A stretch of 40,941 nucleotides of DNA. Source: a virus. Below the pieces are notes generated by a model. That model was not told the origin of the DNA and did no database searches. It saw nothing but the letters and a program-made list of their open reading frames with translations. The DNA is taken from positions 1-40,941 of the IMG/VR virus record IMGVR_UViG_3300050132_000138; one strand, written 5' to 3'. Positions 6,398-38,245 of this stretch are shown here, one piece after another. The translations under genes were made by a program, and so were the position numbers. Position 1 is the first letter of the stretch. Every line of letters starts with the position of its first letter.

Positions 6398-6715
6398 TCA
6401 GGCGGCGGCAGATTCCGGCAGCGCGGCCGGCGGCGCCGGCACATAAGGCTTGGCGCCGAGAATATCGTCGATGATGGCAAGCAGCGTGCGGTCGGCGATC
6501 GCCCAGGGCATCGCGTTGACCGCCTCGGACAAGGTCGAATAGTCGCTTTCCTCGAGCAGCAGCACGCCATCCTTGGCCGCGTCCAGCGCATCGAGCACGC
6601 GAATCCGCGAGCGCATCTGCGTGACGTTGATACCGGAGGCAGCCCCGCTGACGGCCGAGGTGATGATGGCGCTGGTGGTGAAGGCGCCGGCGTCGCGAAG
6701 CGGGATCGATTTCAT
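6398..6715 (-). CDS. Phage protein of unknown function between fibres and endolysin
   Basis: The product is 105 residues with a GGAG ribosome-binding site before the ATG at 6715. The first 30 residues are Ala/Ser/Thr/Ile-rich, the middle is acidic and helical (RIRVLDALDAAKDGVLLLEESD), and the tail is Ala/Pro-rich. No signal peptide or clear membrane segment is seen. Its position after the tail-fibre genes suggests a structural or assembly role, but no family is recognised. About 70 bases without a gene separate it from the endolysin. Confidence 0.65.
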   Translation of the reverse strand: MKSIPLRDAGAFTTSAIITSAVSGAASGINVTQMRSRIRVLDALDAAKDGVLLLEESDYSTLSEAVNAMPWAIADRTLLAIIDDILGAKPYVPAPPAALPESAAA

Positions 6716-26115: not shown

Positions 26116-27409
26116 CTTTTTCGTCCTCGTTGTCCGCCGGCGTCTTGGCCGCGCCGGACGGCCCGGCGGATGTCACGGGATTGTTGTAATCGTCGCCGCC
26201 CTCATCCTTGCGCGGCGAGAGGTTTTCCATCCGCAGCACGTCATTGGCCGAGAGCCATTCGCCCTGGCGGCCGATCAGATAGGCGGCATAACGGCTGCGC
26301 AGATCGCCGCGCAACAGCGCGTTGAAATTGAACTCGACGAACAGCTTTTCGGCGCCGTCGCCGAGCAACAGATCGCGCTCGGCGCCCTGCTCGATCGCGA
26401 TCGCGAGCGGCGCCAGGCAATAGACGACGAAATCGAGCGATTGCTGTTCGATGTTGGAAAACGTCGCCTTATCGAGGCGCCCGGCGCGGTGCGGTGGAAA
26501 ACTCCACAGCCCGAAAATATCGACGTCCGAGCCCTTCTCGGTCTCGAGCAGCTGGGCCTCGGCATTGGTGACCTTGATCGGGTTGTATTTGACGCCGTGC
26601 GTCAAAAGCCGATCCTTGTGGCGATTGCGGCCAGTGCCGCTTTCGCGCCAGTTTTCCATGAACGTCCTACGATCGTCCTTGTCCTTGAAGGTGCCGGGAT
26701 GTTCCAGCGTGCCGCCGCTCTGGCCGGAATTCTGGAACCAGATATCGCCGTATTCATGCACGGCGATCGCGCGGCCGAACACCTCGCGCGCCGTTTCCCA
26801 GATCGGCATCCCGCGCAGACCATCCTCGGTCAAGGGATTGCCGCGCAGGTGCCAGATATCGTCGTCGCGAAAGGTCTGCGGAGCGGGCAACGCGGTGACC
26901 TGGTTGACGGTCACCGGCGGATTGAAGGTGTAGTAGACGTGACCGTCCTCGGCGAGCCAGATTTTTGCCAGCCGGCTCGGATGCAGGATCTCGAGCGAGC
27001 CGATCGCGTAGTCGTCGCCAGGCCGAATGCGGCAATAGGCGTTTTTCCAGTACGACAGATGCCAGGCGATCTCGCCGAAGAATTCCGCCGGCGTGTTTCG
27101 ATCGTTTGGCCGCGCGCCGAGCAGTCTTGTCAGGGGATTGTCGGGCTGCTCTTTCCGAGCGCCATTCTTGCCGCGCTTGTAGACCATCACAGGCAGCGAC
27201 GACATCGCGCCCGACAGGCCAAAGCGCACCGCCTGCACCGCGCCGAGCTGCGAGGTACTGCGCTCGGTGACGCGAACGCCGGCGATCGAGCGGGAATTGC
27301 CATAATCGGCCCAATAGGCCGGATTCGACATGTCGCGCGGCACGCTCGGATCGAAACTATCCGCCACCAGGCGGATGCCGCGGCCGAGTCCTGAGAGAAG
27401 TCCCATCAA
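26090..27409 (-). CDS. Portal protein, HK97 family
   Basis: The product is 439 residues. It shows the HK97 portal pattern: AVQAVRFGLSGAMSSLPVMV, PNDRNTPAEFFGEIAWHLSY, WKNAYCRI, DDDIWHLRGNPLTEDGLRGM, then GRAIAVHEYGDIWFQNSGQS and HRAGRLDKATFSNIEQQSLD. Twelve copies form the dodecameric portal at the head vertex, used for DNA entry and exit. The C-terminus is Pro/Asp/Glu-rich (GPSGAAKTPADNEDEKDA). The start overlaps the terminase stop. Confidence 0.95.
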   Translation of the reverse strand: MMGLLSGLGRGIRLVADSFDPSVPRDMSNPAYWADYGNSRSIAGVRVTERSTSQLGAVQAVRFGLSGAMSSLPVMVYKRGKNGARKEQPDNPLTRLLGARPNDRNTPAEFFGEIAWHLSYWKNAYCRIRPGDDYAIGSLEILHPSRLAKIWLAEDGHVYYTFNPPVTVNQVTALPAPQTFRDDDIWHLRGNPLTEDGLRGMPIWETAREVFGRAIAVHEYGDIWFQNSGQSGGTLEHPGTFKDKDDRRTFMENWRESGTGRNRHKDRLLTHGVKYNPIKVTNAEAQLLETEKGSDVDIFGLWSFPPHRAGRLDKATFSNIEQQSLDFVVYCLAPLAIAIEQGAERDLLLGDGAEKLFVEFNFNALLRGDLRSRYAAYLIGRQGEWLSANDVLRMENLSPRKDEGGDDYNNPVTSAGPSGAAKTPADNEDEKDAENPKAP

Positions 27410-29067
27410 ATCACCGTCAAGATGTCGGCCGAAGTCGTCAGCATCTGGTTTTCGCCCTTGGCGGCGATCGCGAGCGCATTGACCAGCGCTGCAATGCCGT
27501 CGATCCGCTCGGTCGATTTGTTTTTCGCCGGTTTTATGTTGTCGGCGGCGTCCGGCCCCTCGATCGCAACCACCTGGGCGTGCCGGCGCAACACCGGATG
27601 GCCGCCATGATGGAAACCGTTCGACATCACCAGGCGCTCGAGCTCTTTCGAGGGCGCGCCGAGCGAGGCATAGCCCTGCCCCATCAGCACCACCGGCAGC
27701 CCGTGCTGCTCGAGCTCGATCGCGGTGTCGGTGGCGTTCCAGCGGTCGATTGCCAGACCGCCCTCATGGGCCTCGCGCTTGTAGTTGCCGACATGCGCGA
27801 CCTGAAAGACCTCGGCGTCCCGGTAGATCTGCTTTCGGATGAAAGCGTAGTCGATGACGTTGCCGGGCGTGGCGTGCAGCGCGCCGATTTCAGCCCATTT
27901 TTCGTAGGGCAGCTTGTCGCGCTTGGCGTGAGCCTTGAGCAGCATCTGCGGCTTGAAAAACCGGCAGATCACGCGCGGGATCTCGAGCCCCGGCTGGATC
28001 GGAAACCACCACACCAGCGCCGAAAGGTCGATGGTCGAGGATAGATCGAGGCCGCCGAAACAGGTCTTGCCGGTCAGATCCTTTTCGATTTCCGTCCAGG
28101 GCACGGCGCCGGCGCAATGGTCCCAGCCGAACTTATTGCCATCGTCGTCGATGCCGTCGATCGGCAGCCAGCGCACCGCCTGCTCGGTCCAGAGGTTGAG
28201 GTGGTAGCGCTTGAAATCGTTTTCGAGCCGCGGCAGCTGCTGGGCGCGCCGCGCGTCGGTTGCGAGCGCCTCGAGCTTTTTCGACACGCCGAGGTTGGGA
28301 TTGGCTTTCGCCCAGGTTTCGGGCCTGGTCCAGTCATCCTCGACGCCGGCCGCGTACACCACCACCAGGGTTTCGGGATCCTCGATCGTGCCGTCGAGAA
28401 TTTTTTGGCACTCATCCCAGATCTGCTCACCGTAGCCGCCCTTTTTGCCGGCGGTCGAGATCAGGAATTCCAGCGGCTGGCGCCGGGCGCCTTCGCTGTC
28501 ATGGATGAACCCGTAGAGCTCGCCGTCGCGCCATTCGTGGATCTCGTCGCCGATCAGGCCAGAGGTCGAAAGCCCGTGCTTGCCGCCAGGCTTGCCGGAT
28601 AGCGGCTTGAACGATGCATTGAGCCCAGGGCAATAGATCGACGGTTTCAGGCAGACGAGCTCGCCGGACAGCGTTTGCGATTTCGCGACCATCGCGGTCG
28701 CCTTATCGAACACCAGGCGCGCCTGGTCTTTTTCCGAGGCGATCGAGAATACCTGGCCGCCCTGCTCGGCATCGCCCAGCAGCATCAGAAGCGCCACGCC
28801 GGCCGCGAGCTCGGTCTTGCCGTTTTTTCGCGGGATCCAGACGTAGCAGCGGCGATAGCGCCGCAGCCCATCGGGACGTTTCCAGCCGAACAGCGGCCGG
28901 ATGATATCGTTAGCCTGCCAGCCCTCGAGCGCGAACGGTCGGCCCGACCATTCGCCTTCCGTCAGGCAGAGATGGTCGGAAAAGAACCGCACCGCGGCGT
29001 CGGCGGCGCGGGCATCAAACCAATAGTCGCCGGGCTCGGCGAGCGTGACCGCGGCCTGGGGCGCCAT
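27406..29067 (-). CDS. terL: Terminase large subunit, HK97 type (Terminase_1)
   Basis: The product is 553 residues. The N-terminal ATPase has Walker A IPRKNGKT (residues 78-85) and Walker B LIGDEIHE (about 171-178). The nuclease half shows CFGGLDLSSTIDLSALVWW with the first acidic residue, and FQVAHVGN with GLAIDRWNATDT. This is the HK97 gp2/YmfN branch, which generally cuts at cos sites and is often accompanied by an HNH protein, as here. The gene starts four bases after the small subunit gene and overlaps the portal start. Confidence 0.95.
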   Translation of the reverse strand: MAPQAAVTLAEPGDYWFDARAADAAVRFFSDHLCLTEGEWSGRPFALEGWQANDIIRPLFGWKRPDGLRRYRRCYVWIPRKNGKTELAAGVALLMLLGDAEQGGQVFSIASEKDQARLVFDKATAMVAKSQTLSGELVCLKPSIYCPGLNASFKPLSGKPGGKHGLSTSGLIGDEIHEWRDGELYGFIHDSEGARRQPLEFLISTAGKKGGYGEQIWDECQKILDGTIEDPETLVVVYAAGVEDDWTRPETWAKANPNLGVSKKLEALATDARRAQQLPRLENDFKRYHLNLWTEQAVRWLPIDGIDDDGNKFGWDHCAGAVPWTEIEKDLTGKTCFGGLDLSSTIDLSALVWWFPIQPGLEIPRVICRFFKPQMLLKAHAKRDKLPYEKWAEIGALHATPGNVIDYAFIRKQIYRDAEVFQVAHVGNYKREAHEGGLAIDRWNATDTAIELEQHGLPVVLMGQGYASLGAPSKELERLVMSNGFHHGGHPVLRRHAQVVAIEGPDAADNIKPAKNKSTERIDGIAALVNALAIAAKGENQMLTTSADILTVI

Positions 29068-29071
29068 GCTA

Positions 29072-29641
29072 TCAATTCAGAAACCCGATCGCCGATTTCT
29101 CTTTCGACTGATCGGCGTCATTGCCATGGGCACCATCCTGCGGTGCTTGTGCCGCGACCTGGCCGAACAGATCCCCGGCGCCGGCCGCCTGGGCGCGGCT
29201 GGCGAAGATGCGCTGGCGCTCGGCCGGATTGAGGCCAAAGCGATCCTCGGCGGCGAACAGGTTCTTTTCCAGCCGCTCGGCGATCGAGAACGCCGGATGA
29301 ATCCGCCAAAGCTTGCCGTGCGCGCTTTCGCTTTCGTAAAATTCTTTGTTGCGGTCGACCATGGCCTGCATCTTGTGCCAGCGCGCGAAGTTGCGGCAGT
29401 AGCGGCCAAAGGTCTCGGCGTCGATCTGGCTCAACAGCCGGCGCGCGGTCAGCTGCGGCGCCAGGCGATGCCAGACCTCGAGCCCCTTGCGCTTGAGCCA
29501 GACCGGCGGCTGCACCTGGCCGGACGCCTGCGGATCCGCAACAGCGGGCGCGGCGGCATCGTCACCGATCGGCCGATGGCCAGGATTGCCCTTTGCCAGC
29601 TTGACGCTGGCCGGTTCCGGTTTAGGTCCGCGCGGTGCCAT
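29072..29641 (-). CDS. terS: Terminase small subunit
   Basis: The product is 189 residues, starting MAPRGPKPEPASVKLAKGNP. The pattern of a Pro/Lys-rich start, PIGDDAAAPAVADPQASG, then a helical region (VWHRLAPQLTARRLLSQIDA) and FGRYCRNFARWHKMQAMVDR is the P27-family small terminase found with HK97-type large subunits. It binds the packaging site and regulates the ATPase. The C-terminal end is acidic and Ser/Lys-rich. Confidence 0.9.
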   Translation of the reverse strand: MAPRGPKPEPASVKLAKGNPGHRPIGDDAAAPAVADPQASGQVQPPVWLKRKGLEVWHRLAPQLTARRLLSQIDAETFGRYCRNFARWHKMQAMVDRNKEFYESESAHGKLWRIHPAFSIAERLEKNLFAAEDRFGLNPAERQRIFASRAQAAGAGDLFGQVAAQAPQDGAHGNDADQSKEKSAIGFLN

Positions 29642-29654
29642 GGCATGTGCCTCA

Positions 29655-29772
29655 ATAAAAAAAGTTTCGCAAAACCCGCGGCGAAATGTGTGTTTCTAGA
29701 CTACCGGTCCCAGGGAGTATGGCCGGAGGGATTTGACCACCCCCCCACCCCATGGCGCTCCCGGTCGCAAAG
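29655..29772 (-). other. Gap between terminase and HNH genes, candidate packaging (cos) region
   Basis: No gene is seen here. The stretch contains seven consecutive C at about 29741-29747, an A-run, and the short palindrome-like CCGGTCCCAGGGAG. In HK97-type phages the cos site lies near the small terminase and HNH genes, which makes this the best place to look. Nothing in the sequence shows the cut itself. Confidence 0.25.
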
Positions 29773-30180
29773 TCAGGTGATGTCGAGCTCGCGGGTCAAC
29801 TTGACGGCGATCCGACTGTCGAGCCAGAGATCGCTGACCACGATCTCGCAGCGCTCATACATCGCCTCGAGCTTCTGCTTAACCACGTCATGGTGCCAGG
29901 CGCAGCAGGCCTGCCACATATCGGCATTCCAGAACTTGACCTGGTTGCCCTTGTGCGGCTCGACGTGATCGGTGACGGCACTGACTTCAAGCCGCCCTGC
30001 AGCCTCGCAACCCAAGCACAGGGGATGTGACCGCCGGAACGCGCTCGAGGCCTTGTCCCAGGCCGCGCTATAACCGCGCTCGCGCGCCGAACCGCGACGA
30101 GCGTCATATTCGGCGCTGATCACCGCTTGCGACGGTTGGGAATGCGATCGGAACGTCTGCGGACGCATGGGCATACCCAT
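29773..30180 (-). CDS. HNH endonuclease next to terminase
   Basis: The product is about 135 residues. The start is uncertain: ATGs at 30180, 30174 and 30168 all lie past the strong terminator, whereas a start at 30228 would place the terminator inside the gene, which I reject. The HNH core is visible: HPLCLGCEAAG (zinc-binding Cys pair), VTDHVEPHKGN (DH of the beta-beta-alpha motif) and MWQACCAWHHDVVKQK (Asn-replaced centre and distal His). In HK97-like phages the HNH protein works with the terminase for specific DNA cutting, so this position is meaningful. Confidence 0.82.
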   Translation of the reverse strand: MGMPMRPQTFRSHSQPSQAVISAEYDARRGSARERGYSAAWDKASSAFRRSHPLCLGCEAAGRLEVSAVTDHVEPHKGNQVKFWNADMWQACCAWHHDVVKQKLEAMYERCEIVVSDLWLDSRIAVKLTRELDIT

Positions 30181-30186
30181 GACAGC

Positions 30187-30215
30187 AAAAAACCCCGCAT
30201 CGCTGCAGGGTTTTT
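30187..30215 (-). terminator. Bidirectional Rho-independent terminator at the end of the early operon
   Basis: AAAAACCCCGCA (30188-30199) pairs with TGCAGGGTTTTT (30204-30215) with one mismatch and a four-base loop. The minus-strand transcript ends in a run of six U and the plus strand in five U, so it can stop both directions. It lies about 100 bases past the NusG-like gene and just before the HNH and terminase genes, so late genes require read-through or another promoter. Confidence 0.88.
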
Positions 30216-30320
30216 GATCTCTGGACATTTTTCCGGCAGCTGGCTTGACTCGATTTCTCGAGAAGCCATGCGCCGAAAGCCTTATTTGCTTTCGTTCGAA
30301 GCGTTCCGCGACCTTGGCCG

Positions 30321-30926
30321 CTAAACCGCTTCGATGTCACTTTCCGAAACGACGCTCGGAGTGATGCGCCCGAATATCTCGATCCCTATTGTGATTCGAG
30401 ATCCTGAGTCAACTCTTTCGACCAACGCGCAGAACGAACGAAACGGCCCATTGACGACGCGCACAAGCTGACCAATCTCAAACGCTCGCTCGCGCTTGCT
30501 TTTCGGCGTGTTGCCGATCGCTTCGATGCAGCGAATATCGAAAAACAGTTTTGGCGTCAAAAACGCGGTCCAATCGCCAAACCGCAACAGCCCGATGACG
30601 CCGTCGACCTCGTATCGATGCTTTTCATCGAATTCGAAATCGGGAATGAACAAAAGCCCCGGAAATAGCGGCAAACTGACGTTTCGCTGAATTTGATAGT
30701 CAAAGCCGCGACGGCATTGCGTGACGGTTTGCGACGAGGTGATGGTCGGCAGATAAGCGCTGATGTTGCGCTGGCGAAATGTCCGCATCACCTTCGCTTC
30801 GCGGTTTGGGTGCAATTTCAAAACATACCATTTTTTCGGAATTCGCACCTCGAGCGGCCCGAACTGCGCCAAATCGACCATTTCGACGAATTCACCTTTT
30901 TTGAAAAGCCGCTGCTCGACCATCAT
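30321..30926 (-). CDS. NusG-like transcription factor (phage antiterminator candidate)
   Basis: The product is 201 residues. After a short extension (MMVEQRLFKKGEF) a NusG N-terminal domain is clear: KKWYVLKLHPNREAKVMRTF, RQRNISAYLP and LPLFPGLLFIPDF. The C-terminal KOW domain (IGQLVRVVNGPFRSFCALVE, IGIEIFGRITP) follows a linker. NusG binds RNA polymerase and can suppress pausing and termination. Its place as the last gene before a strong terminator and the 27 kb late operon suggests a specialised role in late gene expression, like RfaH-type paralogues. It starts in an ATGA overlap with the replication gene. Confidence 0.88.
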   Translation of the reverse strand: MMVEQRLFKKGEFVEMVDLAQFGPLEVRIPKKWYVLKLHPNREAKVMRTFRQRNISAYLPTITSSQTVTQCRRGFDYQIQRNVSLPLFPGLLFIPDFEFDEKHRYEVDGVIGLLRFGDWTAFLTPKLFFDIRCIEAIGNTPKSKRERAFEIGQLVRVVNGPFRSFCALVERVDSGSRITIGIEIFGRITPSVVSESDIEAV

Positions 30927-32137
30927 GCCGCATCCCCCGTTTCCGATGACAGATTTCCATCCTTGCGCGGTGGCCACGGCCACGGCGCGAATATTCCCGA
31001 TCGCTTGGCATCGCCGAGACCGCGGTCGACGATCAGCGGCGGCCGCGCGCCGAGCACGTTGGCGCTCAGAAAACTCGACCAGGCGCCTATCTGCTGGCGA
31101 TCCTCGATCCATTGCCAGGACGAGCTGGCGCCGGCATCGGCGAAGGCCAGGATCTGCGGCGTTACCTCGCGGGCATAGACCACGCATCCCCTGGTCTCGA
31201 ACGGCCTGGCGCGCGCCACGGCGTATAGCGCCACAATCGCGTTGCCCTCGCGGCTTTCGACATCGAACGAGGTGCGCGACGCCGCAGGATCCGTCTGCAG
31301 CGCGCCTGGAAATTCCTCGAAACCGCGGGCGCGGATCCACAGATGAAAATTCGGAACCCGCGTTCGGCCGAGCCGATCGAGCGCCGCATTGAACAGCGGG
31401 ATGGCATTGCGGCAGATCCGCTGTTTTTCGGCTGGCAGCTTTCGGAACTCGTCGAGCGCGAGATCTCGCCGCATCGCCTCATGGCCGCGCCAGGCCGCCC
31501 AGGCAGCCGCAAAATGCTCAGGCTCGGTTTCTTCACCAGGCGAAGCCGGCTCACTCACGCCCCCTTGGGGGCCTATGGGGGAGTCCGGTTCAGGTTCAGG
31601 TTCAGAGATTAAGCCCTCGCCCGTGTAGCTAGGGCTAACCGAGTCCTGACCGAGTCCTAACCGAGGGCTAATCAACATATGGGGATTTGATGTATCTTCG
31701 ACTACATCTAGCCCTTGCTGCTGGCTAGGGCTAATCACCGTTGATTTTGTTGGGTTTTCTGGCTCGTTTCCAGCTGCCAGATATTCGATTTCGACCTGGT
31801 CGCCCTCGATCAAAAGCTTGATCAGATCGGTGGTGCGCTTGCCGCGGCCGAGGCTATTTCGGTTGCCGTTTTCGTCGAGCCATTGCGGCACCCGCGCGAT
31901 GGCGCCGATTTCCTCGAGCCAGCCCAGGCGCCGGCGCACGGTGTCAGGTGACAGCTCACAATCCTCGGCGAGCGACGGGATACCGACGAAGGCAGAGCCC
32001 TCGCCGTCGACGTAGAGCGTCAGCATGCTCAACACCATTTTGGCGTGCAGGTTGCCGAGCCGTAGATTGCGCGCCCAGGCGTGCGCCTCGTCGGCGGCGA
32101 TGCGTCGCGGCCGGCGTTTTGCGCGGTCGTTTGTCAT
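30923..32137 (-). CDS. Phage replication initiator with N-terminal helix-turn-helix
   Basis: The product is 404 residues. Residues about 20-110 form a winged-helix HTH of the type in phage replisome-organiser proteins (AWARNLRLGNLHAKMVLSML, VGIPSLAEDCELSPDTVRRR). The middle is a Pro/Glu/Gln-rich linker with a Ser/Pro-rich patch that overlies the iteron-like repeats. The C-terminal part (AAAWAAWRGHEAMRRDLALD, FHLWIRARGFEEF) resembles the helicase-loader-interacting end of such proteins. The gene is in the early operon, 70 bases after the gene upstream. The lambda O parallel (origin inside the gene) is inference. Confidence 0.75.
   Translation of the reverse strand: MTNDRAKRRPRRIAADEAHAWARNLRLGNLHAKMVLSMLTLYVDGEGSAFVGIPSLAEDCELSPDTVRRRLGWLEEIGAIARVPQWLDENGNRNSLGRGKRTTDLIKLLIEGDQVEIEYLAAGNEPENPTKSTVISPSQQQGLDVVEDTSNPHMLISPRLGLGQDSVSPSYTGEGLISEPEPEPDSPIGPQGGVSEPASPGEETEPEHFAAAWAAWRGHEAMRRDLALDEFRKLPAEKQRICRNAIPLFNAALDRLGRTRVPNFHLWIRARGFEEFPGALQTDPAASRTSFDVESREGNAIVALYAVARARPFETRGCVVYAREVTPQILAFADAGASSSWQWIEDRQQIGAWSSFLSANVLGARPPLIVDRGLGDAKRSGIFAPWPWPPRKDGNLSSETGDAA
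31631..31737 (+). repeat. 11-bp iteron-like repeats within the initiator gene
   Basis: Four tandem units with an exact 11-bp period run from 31631 to 31674: AGGGCTAACCG, AGTCCTGACCG, AGTCCTAACCG, AGGGCTAATCA. A fifth (AGGGCTAATCA) lies at 31727-31737. The AT-rich stretch 31670-31710 lies between. A period of 11 is not a multiple of three, so the repeats are not caused by a repeated peptide. It matches one DNA helical turn, as in origin iterons. Function as an origin is inference. Confidence 0.6.

Positions 32138-34021: not shown

Positions 34022-34025
<4 letters not shown>
33861..34025 (-). CDS. Small helical protein upstream of the methyltransferase stop
   Basis: The product is 54 residues (MKFSLQAQIAEVDRELAARK and on), almost entirely helical with charged heptads (YARLVATRKLRESHANYQL). 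It starts in an ATGA overlap with the methyltransferase stop (34022-34025), which supports it. No family is recognised. A short coiled-coil adaptor is likely. The gap to the HD-domain gene is about 35 bases. Confidence 0.6.
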
Positions 34026-35787
<1,762 letters not shown>

Positions 35788-35791
<4 letters not shown>

Positions 35792-37368: not shown

Positions 37369-37560
37369 TCATGGAACCGCCCCGTTGCTTTCGATGTCAG
37401 AGATCTCGCGCTCAATCGCCTTGCGCGCCGACCCGCGGCTGGGCGGCCCCTTGGTCTCCCAACGGTGGATGGTGGTCTGATCGACCCCAAACCTTGCCCC
37501 GAAAGCGGTCTGACTCTCGCCGACCCGATCCCGCGTTCTGCGAATCATAGATGCATCCAT
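37369..37560 (-). CDS. Cro-like helix-turn-helix repressor
   Basis: The product is 63 residues. The HTH core is VGESQTAFGARFGVDQTTIH with RWETKGPP (the recognition helix region) near 14-40. It is the first gene of the leftward early operon and divergent from the S24 repressor, the classic cro position. The promoter at 37567-37594 places the transcript start about at its ATG, so the mRNA may be leaderless, or use the second ATG at 37548. It would repress the repressor promoter in the lytic cycle. Confidence 0.82.
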   Translation of the reverse strand: MDASMIRRTRDRVGESQTAFGARFGVDQTTIHRWETKGPPSRGSARKAIEREISDIESNGAVP

Positions 37561-37566
37561 GGCCGA

Positions 37567-37594
37567 AGTATGCGCAACGCTTAGTATCGGTCAA
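37567..37594 (-). promoter_or_regulatory. Leftward early promoter
   Basis: On the minus strand TTGACC (complement of 37589-37594) and CATACT (complement of 37567-37572) form a sigma-70-type -35/-10 pair with a 16-base spacer. The start point would fall near 37560, the Cro-like ATG. A TATGCG motif (37569-37574) overlaps the -10, so a repressor bound there would block the promoter. Confidence 0.7.
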
Positions 37595-37628
37595 TTCCTA
37601 ACGCATACCATCCCTATGCATTATGCAT
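37568..37628. promoter_or_regulatory. Immunity operator region with shared TATGCG/CGCATA motifs
   Basis: GTATGCG at 37568-37574 and its inverse CGCATAC at 37602-37608 form a wide dyad around the leftward promoter. A perfect palindrome ATGCATTATGCAT (37616-37628) overlaps the first ATG of the repressor frame. The same TATGCG/CGCATA motif returns at 38844-38881 upstream of the rightward operon. These are likely repressor or Cro sites; binding is inference. Confidence 0.55.
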
Positions 37629-37630
37629 TG

Positions 37631-38245
37631 ATGAACGAACCATTTGAACGATTGCAAAAGGCCCGCAAAGAAGCCGGCTACCAGGAGGCGGCCGATGCGG
37701 CGAGGGCGCTAAATATCCCCGAACCGACCTATTTTGGGCACGAAAATGGGCATCGCGGACTTTCCCGTTCGGGGCGCCGCTATGCTGAATTCTTTCGAGT
37801 TTCGTTCGACTGGCTCATGACAGGCAAAGGCCAACCCCGCCCCTCGCGGGCCAGGGCAGCGGAACTGCGGCTGGTTCCGCTTGTGGGATACGTTTCGGCG
37901 GGTGCGGCGACACACTTTTTTCCACAGGATTCCGGCCATCTGGATGAAGTCGCCGCGCCAAGCGATGCATCCGACGCGACGGTCGCCGTCGAGATCCGGG
38001 GCGAAAGCCTGGGGACATTTTTCGATCGATGGCTGGTTTACTACGACGATGTCCGCCGCCCAGTAACCAATGACCTTATTAACAAGCTGTGCGTCGTCGG
38101 CTTGGAAGACGGTCGGATTCTGATCAAAAAAATACAGAAAAGCAAAATGCGCGGCTATTTCCACCTGCTATCGCAGACGGAAGACCCCATCACCGACGCC
38201 CGGATCGAGTGGGCAGCCAAGGTCAAACAAATGGTGCCCAGATGA
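37631..38245 (+). CDS. S24-family phage repressor (CI/LexA-like)
   Basis: The product is 204 residues from the ATG at 37631; an ATG at 37616 would add five. An N-terminal HTH region (about 1-60, FERLQKARKEAGYQEAADAA, YFGHENGHRGLSRSG) precedes an S24 peptidase domain: a candidate Ala-Gly cleavage site in LVGYVSAGAATHF, catalytic Ser126 in IRGESLG and Lys166 in GRILIKKIQKS. The intact Ser-Lys pair suggests self-cleavage after host SOS. It is divergent from the Cro-like gene and overlaps the secreted-protein gene downstream. No clear ribosome-binding site is seen, so a leaderless mRNA is possible. Confidence 0.88.
   Translation: MNEPFERLQKARKEAGYQEAADAARALNIPEPTYFGHENGHRGLSRSGRRYAEFFRVSFDWLMTGKGQPRPSRARAAELRLVPLVGYVSAGAATHFFPQDSGHLDEVAAPSDASDATVAVEIRGESLGTFFDRWLVYYDDVRRPVTNDLINKLCVVGLEDGRILIKKIQKSKMRGYFHLLSQTEDPITDARIEWAAKVKQMVPR

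Follow-up and report, generated by a model that had tools for sequence, protein, structure and literature searches.

Organization of the locus

The stretch of DNA analysed here, hereafter the window, is a 40,941-base IMG/VR virus record in which a minus-strand early operon leads into co-directional late genes spanning about 25 kb. The early operon, headed by a cro-like ORF lying opposite the gene for a CI-type repressor, comprises HNH genes, the genes for a DNA methyltransferase, an HD-type phosphatase and an O-like initiator, and lastly the gene for a NusG paralogue (nusG), which at its start overlaps the 3′ end of the initiator gene. Past nusG come a two-hairpin element, a terminator, an HNH endonuclease gene and the two terminase genes, with portal, protease, capsid, tail and endolysin genes following on the same strand beyond terL (Table 1). 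The layout is of the lambda Q type, i.e., a gene at the end of the early operon and then a terminator before the late genes. A sequence-only reading of this DNA had proposed that a NusG-like gene closes the early operon and that a bidirectional terminator lies about 100 bases on, ahead of the HNH and terminase genes; the first is borne out by Pfam, PHROG, AlphaFold2 and Foldseek, and the second by a terminator about 105 nt past the nusG stop.

Two smaller features of the window may be added. The conserved block between the HNH and terS genes contains a G-run, ACCGG and a T-run, and resembles the cos site of HNH-terminase phages. The methyltransferase ORF (34022–35791, minus strand) has a run of alanine codons about 13 residues long.

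Table 1. Features of the locus and, in the last row, of the sRNA gene found in relatives.
Feature	Position	Strand	Basis or remark
CI-type repressor	37559–38245	+	PHROG 4, 2.7e-18; first-ATG ORF, true start maybe ~37619
Promoter-like site preceding cro-like ORF, likely early promoter	37567–37594	−	Consensus match only
cro-like HTH ORF, first early gene	37369–37560	−	
Replication-initiation O-like protein	30923–32137	−	PHROG 1032, 3.9e-08; upstream neighbour, kept in relatives
NusG paralogue (NGN + KOW), 201 aa	30321–30926	−	Last early-operon gene
Two-hairpin element, candidate loading site	30238–30300	−	Covariance-model match, covariation, fold z, pattern unique in window
Bidirectional intrinsic terminator, early/late boundary	30188–30215	−	Fold; class enrichment
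HNH endonuclease, first late/packaging gene	29773–30180	−	PHROG 2323, 2.7e-25
cos-like conserved region, HNH/terS gap	29640–29765	−	Seen in sequence; same arrangement in L002, L003, L004
Terminase small subunit (TerS)	29072–29641	−	PHROG 83
Terminase large subunit (TerL)	27406–29067	−	PHROG match
RF00519 suhB/mmgR	L020:1255–1331; L028:2327–2407	−; +	Similarly in L030, L035, L036, L037, L038, L040, L042

The NusG-type protein

The protein encoded by nusG, P0001, is a member of the NusG/Spt5 superfamily with both an NGN and a KOW domain. It matches Pfam NusG at 2.1e-10 (41.4 bits against a cut-off of 22.2) and, over residues 31–199, PHROG 6386, named “transcription antiterminator,” at 8.9e-20. 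The Pfam KOW match is weak (15.2 bits, under the KOW cut-off); nevertheless, the AlphaFold2 model, calculated from 28 aligned sequences (mean pLDDT 85.7, pTM 0.60), has a five-strand KOW barrel in addition to the NGN fold, and Foldseek matches the model to NusG and RfaH. An RfaH-like helical C-terminal domain was considered and rejected, as AlphaFold2 predicts β structure there. AlphaFold is unable to exclude fold switching.

Housekeeping NusG, a host gene located before rplK, has the same domain architecture, and the KOW domain of P0001 keeps the GPF and IFGR motifs in common with it; the identity to Bradyrhizobium host NusG is, however, 28%, and in the NGN tree the host proteins form a clade separate from those of the phages. 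In NCBIfam, P0001 falls far under the cut-offs for NusG, UpxY, RfaH (equivalog; 55.1 against 144.5 bits) and LoaP (22.9 against 125 bits).

The terminator and the start of the late genes

The terminator, AAAAACCCTGCAGCGATGCGGGGTTTTTT, has a 12-bp stem, and is bidirectional because the fold is stable on both strands: −17.1 kcal/mol (z −4.8) on the late-gene strand and −12.7 kcal/mol (z −3.3) on the opposite one. Only about 7 nt separate it from the likely HNH start at 30180; as a 151-aa ORF beginning at ATG 30228 would take in the terminator, the HNH start is probably 30180 or later.

A terminator at this position is typical of the class. Sixty of 61 NGN loci have one within 300 nt past the NGN stop, compared with 17 of 61 shuffled gaps, and 101 intrinsic terminators in total start in that interval, with a median start at +97 from the NGN stop. 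Read by eye, ppBeUSDA76-1 seems to carry a tandem array of about four. The supposition that many later terminators are also passed draws no support from the sequence: between positions 6500 and 26000, both strands counted, there are 24 terminator-like sites, only mildly above the 15.7 of shuffled sequence.

A conserved two-hairpin element

Past the nusG stop and before the terminator, two hairpins connected by a GCGCA linker at 30273–30269 form the element (fold z −3.99). The first has a stem pairing 30294–30288 with 30280–30274 and the loop AAATAAG, while the second has its 5′ arm at 30268–30258, a GAAA loop at 30257–30254 and a 3′ arm, with a TC bulge, at 30253–30241. No Rfam family matches at the element.

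The covariance model R1, built from six relatives with the window excluded, gives a single match in the window, which is the element (17.7 bits), and one site directly past nusG in each of L182, L130, L239, L240, L060 and L244; its good matches in phage loci are found only after nusG. Across 266 genomes, true sites score 78–85 bits and unrelated background in GC-rich genomes reaches 24–30 bits, so that R1 cannot call weak members alone, and the 17.7 bits of the window, weak as a score, carry weight only in view of the limited search space, the precise position, the unique pattern and the likeness to L244. That pattern, TTCGAACG...CGGCGCA, occurs once in the window and in none of 100 shuffles. 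The layout in L244, whose NusG is 54% identical, is nearly the same, with the stem CGAAAGC/GCTTTCG in the window and CGAAGGC/GCCTTCG in L244.

Covariation is extensive. In an alignment of 13 sequences fitted to the element structure, 98.4% of the pair cells are paired, and double changes are seen in 12 of the 15 pairs; no shuffle out of 500 reaches the observed result, and slid structures pair to 51% at most. An ordinary MAFFT alignment of the six relatives behind R1, not fitted to the structure, gives 98.9% paired, with both sides changed in 6 pairs. The element alignment has 7 G-U cells versus 3 non-pairing cells, an excess that weakly hints at the late-direction strand being the one that folds. 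A few relatives (e.g., L057, L058, L177) have no recognisable element, yet a terminator follows. Judged by these sequence comparisons, the element is a conserved folded RNA (or DNA) signal; it is previously undescribed in the literature searched.

An ops-like loading site had also been suggested. The ops sequence GGCGGTAGNNT is absent from the window, and what lies just upstream of the terminator instead is a structured element specific to the subtype. In relatives, GCGGTAGC was considered as an ops site; it forms part of the 5′ stem of a hairpin associated with mmgR and was dropped because that hairpin varies in sequence.

Conservation of the gene order

The order initiator, NusG, gap, HNH, TerS, TerL is also found in Bradyrhizobium ppBdUSDA122-1 and ppBeUSDA76-1, in Labrenzia vB_LagS-V1, and in more than 15 further divergent prophages from genomes and viral contigs, with NusG identities of 25–57%. 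Searches for close relatives with P0001 or P0005 alone (viral contigs) or with A3 (genome contigs) returned none, and it was alignments and P0004 that found them. NusG is present in all 13 Bradyrhizobium prophage loci whose TerL shares 69% identity or more with the one in ppBdUSDA122-1. In L215, L222 and L223, which have a more distant TerL, the same slot is occupied by a very divergent NGN protein with no KOW match; the two of these proteins that were scanned match Pfam NusG at 6e-15 and 4e-15. Six order-level matches (L045–L050) were discarded, being host NusG beside rplK wherever a flank was inspected.

In many relatives, the NusG/HNH gap contains an RF00519 suhB/mmgR (alpha-r8) sRNA gene (E down to 3e-13), which is absent from the window. 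The mmgR core motif matches more than 120 viral-contig stretches. In the mmgR-pattern set of 120 stretches, an NGN ORF lies upstream of mmgR in 37, and by inspection all stretches that continue straight into an HNH gene and extend far enough upstream carry one, a count not independent of the starting set since HNH detection used queries from NusG phages.

Some loci have features of their own. In L246 and L248, the NGN gene overlaps at TGATG with a following ORF that resembles a GcrA-type regulator, and L245 has an apparent tRNA-like sequence about 150–235 nt past the NGN stop, before the terminator. In Microcystis phage vB_MweS-yong2 (OM681334; L250/L251), NusG is last and terS first in the linear record, giving the same gene order if the genome is circularised.

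Element type and NGN clade

The kind of element changes with the NGN protein. Clade T loci have CCTGATTCCAGG..GACGCGCG in place of the two-hairpin element, a pattern with 8 matches in 266 Bradyrhizobium genomes, 8/8 of them just past a phage nusG (reversed control, 0). In the KOW-less clade C the element position is taken by a GAAGC...GCTTC hairpin, and in group R by 11–12-nt tandem repeats: in L113, L178 and L114, and more weakly in L092 and L187, the first 75 nt past the NGN stop hold four to five of them, with units AGCCACCC.., GATCACGA.. and CGTCACG.., and the periodicity is reached in 0 of 2000 shuffles for L113, L178 and L114. The classes W, T, C and R, assigned by eye from the sequences, require three changes on the NGN tree, the minimum possible; linkage contributes to this agreement and could by itself keep the element matched to the gene type. 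The elements persist where NGN proteins share just 35–45% identity.

A probable NusG-based late-gene switch

The arrangement of NusG, signal and terminator, maintained in widely differing phages of soil bacteria, is most likely a NusG-based late-gene switch, and we consider it probable that the window locus works as one, the NusG paralogue loading at the element and reading through the terminator(s) into the late genes. After induction, transcription from the early promoter would proceed leftward along the replication genes and then nusG, halting at the terminator before the HNH and terminase genes. The accumulated paralogue would be recruited to later RNA polymerases as the element is transcribed, the element being recognised most likely as nascent RNA, as for LoaP, and less likely as exposed non-template DNA, as for RfaH at ops. 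The polymerase thus modified would pass the terminator, and possibly more, into the genes for packaging, head, tail and lysis, with the NusG paralogue filling the place of lambda Q. Binding of protein to element, antitermination and the absence of a separate late promoter are what we infer here. Of the original proposal of a NusG alternative to lambda Q, the core has gained comparative support from the conserved slot, the enrichment of terminators and the substitution of NGN types, while the ops-like site gives way to the structured element and the passage of many later terminators draws no support from the sequence. Phage phiLM21 counts against the switch, as its clear terminators lie past HNH and not in the NusG/HNH gap.

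The antiterminator might instead load elsewhere, in the early leader or at an RfaH-like DNA site, with the element being an mRNA-end, processing or stability structure. We regard this as unlikely: the element does lie at the end of the early mRNA, where 3′ hairpins often stabilise transcripts, but a simple stabiliser is not expected to track the NGN clade, the clade-T motif is found a single time in each prophage and at no other place, good R1 matches in phage loci are confined to the position past nusG, and there is no ops near the gene.

A late-gene switch at the terminator also has to be weighed against a late promoter. A strict sigma-70 scan gives just two promoter-like sites on the minus strand, 37648–37620 and 37594–37567, both in the cI/cro region, leaving none between 26000 and 37500, and a relaxed scan adds three weak sites within nusG, a density close to background. 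In these scans, as in the earlier reading, no late promoter is obvious, and nothing stands clearly above background. No strong dedicated late promoter with a binding element emerged from these consensus scans, which are weak for such hosts, as GC-rich alphaproteobacterial promoters can evade them. It is this evasion, with the weak matches at 30560 and 30412 within nusG, that speaks for late genes under their own promoter (e.g., in nusG or the cos region) and another factor, NusG and the terminator insulating or tuning early transcription. We find this somewhat harder still to accept. The 7 nt or so between terminator and HNH leave no space for a promoter, one of the matches in nusG arises from the codons of the conserved KOW V-D-S motif, and the NGN protein is kept exactly before terminators despite the change of subtype.

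Least probable is that P0001 is a NusG-like terminator or host-takeover factor (e.g., via Rho or ribosome coupling) with no antitermination: contacts to S10 or Rho may persist through the GPF and IFGR motifs, but the C-type proteins in the same slot have no KOW match, and the constant place before terminators with a matching element suits antitermination better.

Relation to known systems

The closest worked-out parallel for the proposed switch is LoaP of Bacillus. This NusG paralogue binds to a hairpin in the RNA ahead of intrinsic terminators and causes readthrough, of further terminators too (PMC12691694). Common to both are the NusG paralogue, the small RNA hairpin before an intrinsic terminator and the long operon downstream. 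LoaP, however, acts through a UNCG-type hairpin on antibiotic operons, whereas the window has a different, two-hairpin element with the loops AAATAAG and GAAA, and a phage late operon. RfaH is likewise a specialised, operon-specific NusG paralogue, differing in its ops site near the gene, which the window lacks, and in its α-hairpin KOW domain, which is predicted to be a β barrel in P0001. We know of no NusG fold in Q or GafZ. The position at the end of the early operon is shared with lambda Q, and the terminator guarding late genes and the predicted processive antitermination with Q, other phage late antiterminators and Caulobacter GafZ (PMC11150451); unlike the proposed window system, Q uses DNA elements at promoters for loading, as GafZ putatively does.

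The nusG-type gene is no novelty in itself, as both the name of PHROG 6386 and the annotation of phiLM21 gp34, “NusG-like transcription anti-terminator” (KJ743987; PMC12429752), precede it. The latter is also NGN-like and lies immediately ahead of HNH, where the early region ends; it differs in that we found no cis element, terminator array or mechanism described for it. A paper on RfaH evolution mentions rfaH-like genes on prophages (PMC7593976). In the literature searched, which included few subscription papers, no phage NusG paralogue is described as a late regulator, nor is such an element, and the NusG reviews consulted describe no phage late regulators. Phage late antiterminators (Q types, GafZ-like) and NusG paralogues (RfaH, LoaP, UpxY) have so far been separate stories; if the switch is real, phages have reused the universal elongation factor NusG as a late switch with a testable RNA signal.

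A wider reading seems to us evenly balanced between right and wrong: NGN proteins of alphaproteobacterial phages would be widespread, fast-diversifying late antiterminators, each subtype paired with its own cis element between gene and terminators (the covarying two-hairpin RNA, the CCTGATTCCAGG motif, the GAAGC hairpin or the 12-nt tandem repeats), forming orthogonal systems, some of them KOW-independent. If true, these many divergent protein–element pairs are natural experiments on the specificity of NusG paralogues.

Finally, L054, L056, L014–L016 and L070 have about 1–3 kb of extra DNA in the NusG/HNH or HNH/terminase gap, a moron-like position comparable to that of the genes behind Q in lambdoid phages.
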